Below are positions 3,546-54,665 of a DNA stretch of 64,000 nucleotides, one piece after another; within the stretch, counting starts at the first letter, position 1; every line of letters begins with the position of its first letter. A model generated the notes under the pieces. The model was not told where the DNA came from. It saw only the letters and a list, made by a program, of their open reading frames with translations, and did no database searches. Where the stretch lies: NCBI GenBank assembly GCA_025924815.1, contig JAICHQ010000001.1, positions 62,001-126,000 on the forward strand. The letters run 5' to 3'. The position numbers were made by a program, and so were the translations under genes. This DNA is from Nocardioides sp. (GTDB taxonomy: Bacteria > Actinomycetota > Actinomycetes > Propionibacteriales > Nocardioidaceae).

Positions 3546-4409
3546 TCAGTCGAGGAGCCACTCGGGGCGCTCGAGCAGGGCCACCAGGACGGCGAGCCAG
3601 CGCGAGGCCTGGACGTCGTCGATGCGCCCCCCGGCCACCGACAGGGTCAGCGTCATCACCTTGCCCGGTACGACCGCGCCGCCGTCGATCACCGGCTCGT
3701 CACGCACGGCGCCGACCGCGAGGACGGCTGCCTGGCCCGGCGGCACCGTGGCGGCCGCCTCCTCGACCCCGAAGCGGCCGGGGTAGGTCACCGGGATGCC
3801 CATCGACGCGGTCTGGTCGTCCTCGATCCGCGCGACGCCGAGCTGCGGCACCTGCCGGTGGGCGGCGACCACCGCTCTGCCGACGAGGTCCATCACCCCG
3901 GAGTCGGGTCGCTCGCGCTCCAGCCGCGCGGAGAGGAACACGAGCCGGTCGACGCGCACCCGCGTGCGGAGGTACTGGTGCTCCAGCACCGGCTCGGCGG
4001 CACGTGGCGGAGCCACCGGTGCAGACGTCGGCTCGACGAGCGGCTTCGGCGGAGCGGGCTCGCCGCGATGGCCGGCCACCGGGGCCTCGACCATCGATGC
4101 GGCGCCGACGCGTTCACGGCGTACGAGGCCCAGGTCGGCCAGTACCGCATCCAGATCGTCGACCTGCTCCCACGGCTCGCCCACTATCCCGATCGGGGTG
4201 CCCGGCTCGACCCGCGTGCCGGGCTCGATCAGGGTCTTCAGCAGCAGTCCCGGGCGCCCCGCCTCGACGCTGAACAGCTCGTTCTCGGTCTCGACGTACG
4301 CAATGGTCTGGGCAGCGTCGAACCGGGCCGACTCCTCCACGAGCCACGCGGACAGCACGCCCTCGTCGGAGTCGGCTGCAACATCAGGCATGCGAAGTAC
4401 CCGAGGCAA
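3546..4409 (-). CDS. Degenerate E2-like (lipoyl/acyltransferase-fold) protein A
   Basis: 287 residues with the layout of a 2-oxoacid dehydrogenase E2: an N-terminal biotinyl/lipoyl-like domain (about 1-80), a Pro/Ala-rich linker, and a shortened acyltransferase-like C-terminal domain (about 140-287). The lipoylation signature ETDKA reads ETENE, so the acceptor lysine is Asn43. The catalytic DHRxxDG motif reads AGGRIDD (about 259-265), so the histidine is gone. No E1 or E3 gene is adjacent. The TTG start is chosen because GAGGAAG lies 4 nt upstream and because the paralogue at 51906-53069 begins identically (xxRVLRMP). It is unlikely to be a working acyltransferase; a structural or regulatory role is inference. 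Confidence 0.75.
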   Translation of the reverse strand: MPRVLRMPDVAADSDEGVLSAWLVEESARFDAAQTIAYVETENELFSVEAGRPGLLLKTLIEPGTRVEPGTPIGIVGEPWEQVDDLDAVLADLGLVRRERVGAASMVEAPVAGHRGEPAPPKPLVEPTSAPVAPPRAAEPVLEHQYLRTRVRVDRLVFLSARLERERPDSGVMDLVGRAVVAAHRQVPQLGVARIEDDQTASMGIPVTYPGRFGVEEAAATVPPGQAAVLAVGAVRDEPVIDGGAVVPGKVMTLTLSVAGGRIDDVQASRWLAVLVALLERPEWLLD

Positions 4410-14375: not shown

Positions 14376-15539
14376 TCACTCCTTCCCGGAGGACCCCAGC
14401 CACTCCCGGATCTCCGCGCCGTGCTCGTCGAGCCGCGGTGGGGGCAGGCGGTAGTCGACCGGGGTCCCGGAGAAGCGGATCGGGTTGCGCACCGTCGGCA
14501 CCATCGCCTCACCCGTCCCCACGTCGACCACCGGCTCGAGTCCGATCTCGCCGGCGAAGCCCACCCCGCCCGCCACGTCGTTGATCGGCCCGCACGGCAC
14601 CCCGGCGGCGACGATCTCGCGGAACCACTCCGTCGTCGTGCGGGTGCGCAGCCGCGCGACGAGCAGCGGCCGGAGCTGGTCGCGGTTGACGGTGCGGTCC
14701 TCGTTGCGTGCGAAGCGCGGGTCGTCCGCGAGCTCGGGCACGCCGAGCACCTCGCAGAGCCGGCGGAACTGCGCGTTGTTGCCGGAGGTGATCACCAGCT
14801 CGCCGTCCGCACAAGGCAGCGGTTCGTAGGGGTAGAGGCTCGGGTGGTTGTTGCCCATCCGGTGCGGGACGACCCCGCCCGCGACGTACGCGCTGGTCTG
14901 GTTGACCATCCCGGACAGCGCGGAGGAGAGCAGGTCGACCTCGACGTGCTGGCCCTGCCCGGAGTCACTGCGCGCCCGGAGGGCCGCCAGGATGCCGATC
15001 GCGGCGTGCATGCCGGCGATCACGTCGAACAGCGCGAACCCGGAGCGCAGCGGCTCGCCCTCGGGCGTGCCGGTGAGACTCATCAGGCCGGACATCGCCT
15101 GCACGATCAGGTCGTAGCCGGGCAGTGCCCGGCCCCGCTCCGTCGTCCCGAAGCCGCTGATCGAGGCGTAGACGACGCCCGGGTTGGTGGCGGCGACGGC
15201 GTCGTACCCGAGACCGAAGCGGTCGAGCCCGCCAGGCCGGAAGTTCTCGATCAGGACGTCGGCCCGCCCGGCCAGCTCGCGGGCGAGCGCCCGGTCGGTG
15301 CCGTCGGCGAGGTCGAGGACGACGGAGCGCTTGTTCCGGTTGACACCGAGGAAGTACGTCGACACGCCGTCGCGCACGGGCGGCGCCCAAGCCCGCGTGT
15401 CGTCGCCGGCCGGCGCTTCGACCTTGATCACCTCGGCGCCGAGGTCGGCCAGCAGCATGGTCGCGTACGGCCCGGCCAGCACCCGCGAGAAGTCGGCCAC
15501 CAGCAACCCCGCCAACGGACCGGTCGGACGATCATCCAT
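14376..15539 (-). CDS. CaiB/BaiF family CoA-transferase
   Basis: 387 residues. It opens with GPLAGLLVADFSRVLAGPYATMLLADLGAEVIKVE-type sequence, the family signature, and has the aspartate nucleophile region PGYDLIVQAMSGLM and the GNNHPSLYPYEP block. It transfers CoA between carboxylic acids through an enzyme-bound glutamyl/aspartyl-CoA route; the acids are not identifiable. ATG 15539 is preferred over the track GTG at 15557 because GGGAGA lies about 8 nt upstream. It is 28 nt downstream of a small hypothetical gene on the same strand. Confidence 0.9.
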   Translation of the reverse strand: MDDRPTGPLAGLLVADFSRVLAGPYATMLLADLGAEVIKVEAPAGDDTRAWAPPVRDGVSTYFLGVNRNKRSVVLDLADGTDRALARELAGRADVLIENFRPGGLDRFGLGYDAVAATNPGVVYASISGFGTTERGRALPGYDLIVQAMSGLMSLTGTPEGEPLRSGFALFDVIAGMHAAIGILAALRARSDSGQGQHVEVDLLSSALSGMVNQTSAYVAGGVVPHRMGNNHPSLYPYEPLPCADGELVITSGNNAQFRRLCEVLGVPELADDPRFARNEDRTVNRDQLRPLLVARLRTRTTTEWFREIVAAGVPCGPINDVAGGVGFAGEIGLEPVVDVGTGEAMVPTVRNPIRFSGTPVDYRLPPPRLDEHGAEIREWLGSSGKE

Positions 15540-51030: not shown

Positions 51031-51846
51031 TCAGCGCCGGCTACGCGACCGGCGGACGGCCTCTCGCACGTGCAGGGTCGACAGCCCGGTGCCCGTCGGC
51101 ACCTCCTGGACCTCCAGTCGCGGCAGGTCCGCGACCAGGGTGCTGAGCTTGGAGTAGCCGTAGTTGCGCGAGTCGAAGGTCGGGTTGGTGTTCACCAGGT
51201 AGGACCCGACCGCCGACAGCGCCGCCCAGCCGTCGTCCTTCGCGTTGGCCTCGACGGCCGGGAGCAGCAGGTCCGTCAGCTGCTGCACCTGTGACGTGCT
51301 GCGAGTCGCCGTCTTCTTGGCCGGCGCCACCTTCTTCACCGCCTTCGTGGCGGTCGCCGTGGCCGCAGCGGCCTTCGACGCCGGCCTGTCGGCTTCGGCG
51401 TTGGCGTCCGCTCCGACCAGCACCTCGACGTAGGTGAACTGGTCGCAGGCGTTCTGGAACGCCGGCGGCGTCTTGTGCGCCCCGATGCCGAAGACCCGCT
51501 TGCCGGACTCGCGCAGCCGCATCGCGAGGCGGGTGAAGTCGCTGTCGCTGGACACGATGCAGAAGGTGTCGACGGTGCCGGCGTAGAGCAGGTCCATCGC
51601 GTCGATGACCAGCGAGAAGTCCGTGGCGTTCTTGCCGACGGTGTAGGCGAACTGCTGCACCGGCTGGATGGCGTACGTCGGCAGCTTGTCGCGCCAGCCC
51701 TCCAGATGGCTGTCCGTCCAGTCCCCGTAGCCGCGCTTGATCCCCAGGGTGCCGTGCTTCGCGGTCTCCGCCAGGATCTCGCGGACCCAGCGATGGCTCA
51801 TGTTGTCGCAGTCGATGAGCACCGCCACGCGCTCGGTGTCGCTCAC
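51031..51846 (-). CDS. NYN (PIN-like nuclease) protein with OST-HTH/LOTUS domain
   Basis: 271 residues. The N-terminal NYN domain has acidic residues in AVLIDCDNMS and IVSSDSDFTRLAMRLRESGK, which form a metal-dependent RNase site. An Ala/Lys/Thr-rich linker (KAVKKVAPAKKTATRSTSQ) leads to a C-terminal LOTUS/OST-HTH domain (about 185-260, DDGWAALSAVGSYLVNTNPTFDSRNYGYSKLSTLV), a likely RNA or G-quadruplex binder. GTG 51846 follows AGGAGG; the track ORF is over-long. It probably acts in RNA turnover. Confidence 0.88.
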   Translation of the reverse strand: MSDTERVAVLIDCDNMSHRWVREILAETAKHGTLGIKRGYGDWTDSHLEGWRDKLPTYAIQPVQQFAYTVGKNATDFSLVIDAMDLLYAGTVDTFCIVSSDSDFTRLAMRLRESGKRVFGIGAHKTPPAFQNACDQFTYVEVLVGADANAEADRPASKAAAATATATKAVKKVAPAKKTATRSTSQVQQLTDLLLPAVEANAKDDGWAALSAVGSYLVNTNPTFDSRNYGYSKLSTLVADLPRLEVQEVPTGTGLSTLHVREAVRRSRSRR

Positions 51847-51905: not shown

Positions 51906-53069
51906 TCAGGTCAGGAACGCCAGGGGCTGTTCGAGCAGGCCGGAGAGGTGGGCGAGCCAACGAGCGGCGGTGGCCGCCTCGACCCGGTCGGCGTCGCACG
52001 AGAGGGTCAGGGTCACCACGCGTCCGGGCACCAGCACTCCGCCCTCGACGACCGGGCGCACGCGGACCGCGCCGAGCGCCAGCACCGCGGGGTGCGCCGT
52101 GGTCGCGTCCAGGTGGCCCTCCGCCACGCCTTCGGCGCCGAGGTCGACGATCGTCACGAACGCCGGCTCGAGCTCTCCCGACGCCAGCCGGCCCTCGCGG
52201 GCGCGGACGTCGAGGTCGGCCAGCGTGGCGGTCAGGGAGCTCGCCGTCATCAGGTTGGCGACGTGCATCACCGGCACGACCGTGCCGGTGCGGGTCCAGC
52301 GCTGCACGGCGACGGCCGCGATCGACGAGGGATCCGGATGCAACGGCACCTGGCGGCTGGTCACCGCGACCGCCTTGACGACCAGGCCGATCAGGGAGAC
52401 CGAGTCGACCTTGCTGACCACCGACAGCAGCTCGTCGGCGCGGACGTCGTCGCGCAGCTGGACCTGCCGCAGCACGTCGCCCGGGGCCGTGTCCGAGGCG
52501 GCCCGGTGCGACGTCGGCTGCGGCTCGGAGACCCGTACCGCGTCGACGACGGCCTCGGCGACGGTGTCCGCCCATCCCACCACCCGGCGTACGACGACGC
52601 CGTCGTCGGCCGGCGCGTCCGGCTGGGCCGACACCGCCTCGACCAGTGCACTGGCCCACTTCTCGTCCGCCTCGGGCTCCTCGTCGACCGTCTCGTGCGG
52701 TGGCCAGGTGGTGGCGTACAGGGGATCGTGCGACGGCACGGCGCGCAGGTGGGCGCCTGCCTGCTGGGCTTCGGGCGCGACCGCGAGCCCGAGCTGGACC
52801 ATCAGCTGCTCGACGTCGTCGATCACCTCGCCGGGGGCGGCGAGCACCGCCAGTGGGCTGCCCGGCTCGACGTGCTGACCGGGAGCGACCAGCGACCTGA
52901 TCAGGATCCCCGGCTCGGCCACCTCGATGCTGAGCAGCGACGAGGCCGTCTCGACGGTCGCGATGCTCTGGGCGCCGAGGAAGTCGCCGCGCTCGCCGAC
53001 CAGCCACTCCGTGAGCGTGGCGGAGCTCGGGTCGTCCGCCAGCTCTGGCATGCGCAACACCCGCGCCAC
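51906..53069 (-). CDS. Degenerate E2-like (lipoyl/acyltransferase-fold) protein B
   Basis: 387 residues, paralogue of 3546-4409. N-terminal lipoyl-like domain (1-80) in which ETDKA reads ETASS, so Ser43 stands where the lipoyl lysine should be. A long acidic linker is followed by an acyltransferase-like domain (about 190-387), fuller than in protein A, in which DHRxxDG reads DADRVEA, losing the histidine and glycine. There is no PSBD motif and no E1/E3 neighbour. GTG 53069 follows GGGGGGA and gives the same opening (xxRVLRMPEL) as protein A; the track extension upstream is not supported. Confidence 0.75.
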   Translation of the reverse strand: MARVLRMPELADDPSSATLTEWLVGERGDFLGAQSIATVETASSLLSIEVAEPGILIRSLVAPGQHVEPGSPLAVLAAPGEVIDDVEQLMVQLGLAVAPEAQQAGAHLRAVPSHDPLYATTWPPHETVDEEPEADEKWASALVEAVSAQPDAPADDGVVVRRVVGWADTVAEAVVDAVRVSEPQPTSHRAASDTAPGDVLRQVQLRDDVRADELLSVVSKVDSVSLIGLVVKAVAVTSRQVPLHPDPSSIAAVAVQRWTRTGTVVPVMHVANLMTASSLTATLADLDVRAREGRLASGELEPAFVTIVDLGAEGVAEGHLDATTAHPAVLALGAVRVRPVVEGGVLVPGRVVTLTLSCDADRVEAATAARWLAHLSGLLEQPLAFLT

Positions 53070-53260
53070 GGCGTCCCCCCAAGGACCTATCTCGCGGAGC
53101 ACCCGGTGCGGCTGCCCCACAGCGACAAGCGCACCGTAACCCACTCGGGCACCCGCGGCCACGCTCCCACGGCGCTCCGCGAACGACGTGTCGAACGCCC
53201 CTGGCCGACAGGTGCTAGGCGACCCGGGGCGGGCCCCTGGCACCGGTCCGGAACCGCTGT

Positions 53261-53266
53261 CAGGAT
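53261..53266 (+). promoter_or_regulatory. -10-like CAGGAT, leaderless start for the amidase
   Basis: Ends 7 nt before ATG 53274; there is no ribosome binding site. Confidence 0.35.
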
Positions 53267-53273
53267 CGCGGTC

Positions 53274-54665
53274 ATGACGTCAGGAGCCGCCCAGGACGAG
53301 GTACGCCGACTGCTCGGCCGCATCGAGGAGCTGGACCCCCTGATCAGCTCGGTCAACGCCGTCAACCCCCACGCCCTGACGGAGGCCCAGGCCCTCGACC
53401 GCGAGACCGCGGCGGGCCACCGGCGCTCCGCCCTCCACGGGAAGGCCGTGCTGGTCAAGGACAACATCGACACCGCCGGACTGGCCACGACGGCCGGCTC
53501 GCTCGCCCTCGCCGACGCTCCCCCGGAGCGCGATGCGCCGTTGGTACGCCGCCTCCGTGAGTCGGGGATGGTCGTGCTCGGCAAGACCAACCTCAGCGAG
53601 TGGGCCAACATCCGCGACCCGCACTCCACCTCCGGATGGAGCGCGCACGGCGGCCTGACCCGCAACCCGTACGCGCTCAACCGCACGGCGTGGGGGTCGA
53701 GCTCGGGCAGCGGGGCCGCGCTCGCCGCGGGGCTCACGGCGTACGCCGTCGGCACGGAGACCAACGGCTCGATCACCGCCCCCGCCGCCGCCTGCGGCGT
53801 GGTCGGGCTGAAGCCCACGGTCGGGCTGGTGCCGACCCAGGGCGTCGTGCCGATCTCGTGGACCCAGGACTCACCCGGGCCGATGGCGCGAACCGTCGCC
53901 GACACCGCGGCGCTGCTCGACGCCATGGCCGGCACGAGTACCGCCGACGCCCTGGCGACGCCCGTGCGTGGCCGGCGGGTCGGCGTACCACGAGACCTGT
54001 GGGGACACAGTCCGGCGGCCGACGCGGCGGCCGAGCGCGCGCTCGAGATCCTGTCGCGTGCGGGGGCCGTGATCGTCGACGGCCTCGCCCTGCCGGCGTT
54101 GAAGGACCTCGACGACGAGGTCGGCCTCACCCTGATGCTGGTCGAGCTCAAGATCGGGCTCGCGACCTACCTGGCGACCCGTGACGCCCCGGTGAAGACG
54201 CTGGCCGACGTGATCGCCTTCAATCGCGCCCACGCCGGTGACGAGCTCCGGTGGTTCGGCCAGGGCCTGCTCGAGATGGCCCAGGACACCGAGGGCGGCG
54301 CGTCGACGGCCTACCTCGAGAGCGTCGATGCCTGCGCCGTGGCCGGTCTGGCCGAGCTCGACCGCACGCTCGGCGAGCACGACCTCGCCGCCCTCGTCGC
54401 GCCGGCGATGGCGCCTCCCCCGCCGATCGACCTGGTGAACGGCGACTCGGGCGTCGGCGGGAGCGCCAGCGACTCCAGCGCGCTGGCCGGCTCGCCGATT
54501 CTGACGGTGCCGATGGAGCTCACCCACGGACTGCCCGTCGCGGTCTCGTTGTGGGGAGCGCGCGGGAGCGACCCTTGCGTGCTGCAGCTCGGGGCAGCCC
54601 TGGAGTCCGGTCGCGACGCGCAGTCCGGACCGCTGCCCGAGCCGGCGTTCGCGGAATGGGTGTGA
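53274..54665 (+). CDS. Amidase signature family enzyme
   Basis: 463 residues. The Ser-cisSer-Lys triad is visible: Lys in AVLVKDNIDTAG, cis-Ser in WGSSSGSGAALAAG, and nucleophile Ser in TNGSITAPAAACG. It hydrolyses an amide to acid and ammonia; the substrate is unknown (the group includes GatA-like and Glu-tRNA-independent amidases, but no gatB/C is nearby). ATG 53274 is set by a -10 box 7 nt upstream; the 905-residue track ORF runs antisense through the E2-like gene. It precedes the mycothiol-dependent enzyme by 22 nt. Confidence 0.88.
   Translation: MTSGAAQDEVRRLLGRIEELDPLISSVNAVNPHALTEAQALDRETAAGHRRSALHGKAVLVKDNIDTAGLATTAGSLALADAPPERDAPLVRRLRESGMVVLGKTNLSEWANIRDPHSTSGWSAHGGLTRNPYALNRTAWGSSSGSGAALAAGLTAYAVGTETNGSITAPAAACGVVGLKPTVGLVPTQGVVPISWTQDSPGPMARTVADTAALLDAMAGTSTADALATPVRGRRVGVPRDLWGHSPAADAAAERALEILSRAGAVIVDGLALPALKDLDDEVGLTLMLVELKIGLATYLATRDAPVKTLADVIAFNRAHAGDELRWFGQGLLEMAQDTEGGASTAYLESVDACAVAGLAELDRTLGEHDLAALVAPAMAPPPPIDLVNGDSGVGGSASDSSALAGSPILTVPMELTHGLPVAVSLWGARGSDPCVLQLGAALESGRDAQSGPLPEPAFAEWV

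Follow-up and report, generated by a model that had tools for sequence, protein, structure and literature searches.

Degenerate E2 paralogues maintained in Nocardioides as probable non-catalytic pseudoenzymes

Why would a bacterium keep two E2-like genes whose products have lost the residues on which E2 function depends? E2 transfer requires the lipoyl-lysine and the histidine of the HxxxDG motif, and the most familiar inactive E2 paralogue is the eukaryotic E3BP, whose inactivity remains unexplained. We analysed a window of 64,000 nucleotides (G000:C1:62001-126000) from a 3.29 Mb draft assembly of the genus Nocardioides, which holds two such genes, and we propose with a probability of about 0.9 that they belong to a maintained family of neofunctionalised E2 pseudoenzymes.

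Both E2-like reading frames that the initial annotation had placed at 3546-4409 and 51906-53069 are present, in agreement with Pfam matches and mutual identity. Gene 1 (3546..4409, minus strand, lineage W1) encodes a degenerate E2 paralogue of 287 amino acids with a TTG start, gene 2 (51906..53069, minus strand, lineage W2) one of 387 amino acids with a GTG start, and each assignment is based on the open reading frame, Pfam and orthologues. Protein 1 matches Biotin_lipoyl (E 4e-5) and 2-oxoacid_dh (E 5e-18). Protein 2 matches 2-oxoacid_dh (E 4e-21), with Biotin_lipoyl (PF00364) below threshold (16 bits, E 0.011), though this family is above the cut-off in its orthologues P0006 and P0007. Identity between the two proteins reaches 45% over 93 amino acids in the hammerhead (lipoyl-like) domain and 50% over 72 amino acids at the C-terminus of CAT, and they are therefore homologous. 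GC contents at the three codon positions are normal in both genes (0.82/0.48/0.90 in gene 1, 0.79/0.49/0.94 in gene 2), and purine-rich stretches stand upstream of both, GAGGAAG in the case of gene 1. An open reading frame of 905 amino acids (window 51948-54665, plus strand) runs antisense over gene 2 into a real amidase gene (approximately 53235-54665); it may be picked by automated callers, thereby hiding gene 2.

The losses in these proteins concern the very sites of E2 catalysis. At residue 43, the lipoyl-lysine site, alignments place the lysine of ETEKA in an intact paralogue opposite Asn in protein 1 (ETEN; 4281..4283, minus strand) and Ser in protein 2 (ETAS; 52941..52943, minus strand), and the four genes of each lineage read N/D/N/D in W1 and S/T/T/T in W2. 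In the HxxxDG region, the intact DHRPVDG is aligned with VAGGRIDD (AGGRIDD-type) in protein 1 and with DADRVEA in protein 2. The catalytic histidine is replaced by Gly in W1, by Ala in all four W2 proteins (residue 360 of protein 2; 51990..51992, minus strand) and by Gln in a third lineage, W3. Protein 2 has, besides the histidine, lost the Thr of VTNLG and the NPP motif. The alignments thus bear out the claim that Lys43 had become Asn and Ser and that HxxxDG was lost, and since orthologues in other genomes, every one of which lacks both residues, have changed at the same positions, these losses are beyond chance.

Whole domains are missing as well. The E1/E3-binding PSBD (PF02817) gave no match at E<=1 in any degenerate member and was found in all three intact E2s tested (56-58 bits). 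The CAT N-terminal arm is missing in protein 2 and W3, and also in protein 1 and its orthologues, which in addition lack about 54 residues in the middle of CAT; in protein 1, about 75 CAT residues, roughly a third, are gone. The shared E2 layout described earlier therefore holds for the homologous hammerhead and CAT, but not for the PSBD, which is absent in both proteins, nor for the reduced CAT of protein 1. Because the established mechanism needs the missing residues, lipoyl carriage and E2-type acyl transfer would be excluded in both proteins. For annotation this calls for caution, as both genes carry E2 family matches yet lack everything that E2 work needs.

Predicted structures show what is left. 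AlphaFold2 models reach a mean pLDDT of 84.0 for protein 1 and 79.9 for protein 2. Most residues of the two domains, hammerhead and CAT, exceed 90, and the linkers are disordered. Residues 1-80 form the hammerhead in both proteins, in protein 1 at 4170..4409 and in protein 2, where the PF00364 match is weak, at 52830..53069 (both minus strand; pLDDT mostly >90). The reduced CAT of protein 1 comprises residues 139-287 (3549..3995, minus strand) according to alignments, model and Foldseek, and the CAT of protein 2 (PF00198) residues 199-387 (51909..52475, minus strand; pLDDT mostly 92-98), a near-complete fold without the N-terminal arm. Foldseek retrieved E2 cores for both, over the whole CAT for protein 2 (TMt <=0.82) and partially for protein 1 (TMt 0.5-0.6), an agreement in fold that is no independent test, since homologous E2s are part of the model alignments. 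The description of both folds as intact fits protein 2 with its near-complete CAT, but not the reduced CAT of protein 1, and the PSBD is lost in both.

Such losses, together with long branches in the tree, could mark decaying duplicates, pseudogenes whose frames are still open by chance, as frames tend to stay open in high-GC DNA. The pattern of substitution argues strongly against this. Between G000 (the genome of the window) and G226, differences at codon positions 1, 2 and 3 amount to 0.15/0.11/0.38 in gene 1 and 0.15/0.09/0.37 in the intact E2, whereas a neutral simulation yielded approximately 0.37/0.41/0.36 and three to four stop codons. None was observed, which has a probability of 0.015-0.045 per pair under neutrality in this simulation, and neither stops nor frameshifts occurred in the members examined. 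NG86 estimates of dN/dS were 0.19-0.23 for the three closest W1 pairs and 0.25 for the closest W2 pair, compared with 0.25-0.29 for the intact E2. At greater distance the ratio rose to 0.36-0.47 among W1 pairs and 0.40-0.67 among W2 pairs, where dS is saturated and inflates it. Gene 2 is less constrained in these distant comparisons, which is compatible with relaxed constraint. Conservation in protein 1 follows its domains, with identities among orthologues of 79-95% in the hammerhead, 21-66% in the linker and 68-90% at the CAT C-terminus, the profile of a functional protein with two domains and like that of a working E2. With orthologues in several genomes, normal codon GC and the purine-rich upstream sequences pointing the same way, decay is highly improbable for the pair, and the pseudogene reading is largely refuted for gene 1. 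The earlier statements that the two genes are not simply decaying and that they form a conserved non-catalytic family thus agree with codon-position constraint, dN/dS, open frames and orthologues alike.

The family descends from a lipoyl-PSBD-CAT E2 encoded together with a fused E1-alpha/beta. Such a pair lies about 22 kb upstream of the window on the same contig, where an intact E2 (C1:39369-40634) directly follows a fused E1 gene (712 amino acids; E1_dh, Transket_pyr, Transketolase_C). This E2 is the closest intact relative of protein 1 within the genome (48-50% in hammerhead and CAT); it shares the homologous hammerhead and CAT and the RVLRMP opening, and is the presumed ancestor type, but unlike proteins 1 and 2 it has the ETEKA lysine, the DHRPVDG histidine, a PSBD, the CAT N-terminal arm and an adjacent E1. 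A second intact E2 is found on the same contig at C1:130936-131619. In the neighbourhoods examined, no E1, E2 or E3 gene stands in an operon with gene 1 or 2; the absence of E1 and E3 partners noted initially is correct for these neighbourhoods, but an E1 does exist on the contig, adjoining a third, intact E2. All 36 related E1-linked E2s compared have the DHR motif, and the lysine is kept wherever the scan could read the site. Homologues with lysine and histidine, which the initial annotation had held to speak against its family, are thus found among the E1-linked E2s but not among the direct orthologues.

In the tree, W1, W2 and W3 come out as a single clade (99/95) within the E1-linked E2s, and W2 and W3 are sisters (100/99). 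W3 (G090:C1:3196241-3197326, equal to L103:7242-8327) occupies the locus in G090 that corresponds to gene 2; it has kept the lysine (ETEKLVV), has Gln for the histidine and lacks the PSBD. Judged by these residues, W3 could still be a lipoyl carrier and represent an intermediate state. A clade of W1 and W2 that excludes W3 was rejected (p=0.004), and the lysine was therefore lost at least twice. Compared with the ancestral E2, members of the family lack the PSBD, the N-terminal arm of CAT and the catalytic histidine, and the lysine was lost in the lines of genes 1 and 2. Of the two independent losses proposed initially, the separate loss of the lysine in these two lines stands, but the loss of PSBD and histidine looks ancestral to one clade. 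A single origin of the degenerate clade is favoured, not proven, as a grouping of W1 with its own intact E2 was not rejected (p=0.15), and the degenerate branches are long and grouped, so that long-branch attraction may aid the single clade.

In the genomes searched, orthologues of both genes came from Nocardioides. Protein 1 has orthologues in G226 (77%), G225 (75-78%) and G210 (62-73%), and protein 2 in G225 (71-78%), G226 (61%) and G090 (61%). The N-terminus of the G226 W2 protein was read from contig L127 (G345:C97), which overlaps L102 (G226:C70) letter for letter; L127 is 3 kb long and was binned in a genome of a different genus (G345), probably wrongly; it supplies the 5' end of gene 2 in G226. 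In profile searches, W1 was present in four of 346 family genomes and W2 or W3 likewise in four, all of them Nocardioides and five genomes in total (four of them draft assemblies) plus the G345 contig, and a sample of 387 order genomes contained no further members. We therefore rejected a Nocardioidaceae-wide family: the direct orthologues are indeed substituted at residue 43 and in HxxxDG, but the family is restricted to a small clade.

What remains in these proteins is a hammerhead, a linker and a CAT-type fold, and a scaffold is therefore the most economical role. The CAT remnant would act as a putative oligomerisation core, and protein docking would fall to the hammerhead, carried as a head on a flexible linker; the docked partner need not be the parental E1 or E2. 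We give this non-catalytic mechanism an even chance, given that both proteins have lost the CAT N-terminal arm and protein 1 about a third of CAT.

The nearest known parallel is E3BP. Proteins 1 and 2 resemble E3BP, PDHX and fungal protein X in principle, as E2 paralogues with a CAT-like domain that is inactive, here judged from residues only, and protein 1 shares the reduced CAT fold of fungal protein X (PMC10156792). Putative E3BP-like subunits would co-assemble with an intact E2 core, either the parental one or that of PDH, BCKDH or OGDH, and alter its geometry, stoichiometry or E1 access, and the lipoyl-less hammerhead may serve as an E1 decoy. The reduced, inactive CAT of fungal E3BP, which assembles inside the E2 core (PMC10156792), is a precedent; E2 cores are the best matches to the CAT fold, sequence matches include human PDHX and fungal protein X, and intact E1 and E2 are present in G000, G226 and G210. 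However, an E3-specific PSBD is the criterion for E3BP (PMC10156792) and its very purpose, E3BP is described as eukaryotic and the proteins here are bacterial, and we rejected membership in E3BP, since the PSBD is absent in both proteins. Neither is there an operon with any E1, E2 or E3 gene to support co-assembly, nor does the parental complex accompany the family everywhere. G090, a single contig with 100% completeness, retains W2 and W3, but lacks a fused E1, its best E1 matches reaching 34-42%, and its matches include no intact E2 of the subfamily; in G225 (94% complete), the parental E1 and E2 are apparently absent too. E3BP-like subunits are thus a rather doubtful explanation, and the regulation of a parent dehydrogenase complex, suggested initially, is unlikely as a general role. 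Since G090 keeps two members without the parental E1 and E2, their role would be independent of the parental complex, and a lipoyl-free, E2-derived scaffold at work in a process with no relation to 2-oxoacid dehydrogenases is a possible, if tentative, extension of the scaffold reading.

Two further rivals would assign a function to the CAT pocket. The proteins might still be true enzymes of an altered kind, the former active site now carrying newly conserved residues such as the G-R/K-I/V-D-D at residues 261-265 of protein 1 (3615..3629, minus strand), which reads GR[IV]DD or GKIDD in all four W1 proteins (protein 1, G226, G225, G210). Three of the four W1 genes, those of G226, G225 and G210, moreover adjoin a LigB ring-cleavage dioxygenase cluster with LigB, LigA-like, zinc-dehydrogenase and related genes. 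No known motif matches, however, and G000 keeps gene 1 without any LigB match, so that we rejected a functional tie to this cluster and consider a new enzyme quite unlikely. Even less probable is the binding of acyl-CoA or another small ligand through the old CoA channel. The near-complete CAT predicted for protein 2 would allow it, but histidine, VTNLG Thr and NPP motif are gone there and much of the domain is missing in protein 1; the earlier suggestion of an acyl-CoA binder found no support in the rewritten active-site region of the former or the truncated CAT of the latter.

Some features of the neighbourhoods deserve mention in their own right. In G225, a CaiB-type CoA transferase, a citrate-synthase-like C-terminal protein, LigB, a LigA-like protein and a dehydrogenase are encoded in a row (L098:161-4394, G225:C29), possibly an aromatic-acid pathway, and a homologue of the CoA transferase persists in G000 (window 14376-15500). 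The gene next to gene 2 (window 51031-51846, minus strand) has a G225 orthologue with NYN and OST-HTH/LOTUS, an RNA-linked domain pair. The G090 orthologue of gene 2 (G090:C1:515470-516579, equal to L100:7471-8580) adjoins a biotin-dependent carboxylase-type cluster with a carboxyl transferase and a biotin/lipoyl carrier protein. A tie of gene 2 to its NYN, VOC or amidase neighbours was rejected, as general synteny over many kb makes this proximity uninformative.

We found no description of bacterial proteins of this kind in the open-access literature. The Nocardioides genes form a bacterial clade with graded states, from intact E2 through a form that has kept the lysine and lost histidine and PSBD to proteins that have lost all of these, and these states make the order of losses and the non-catalytic use of E2 architecture testable.
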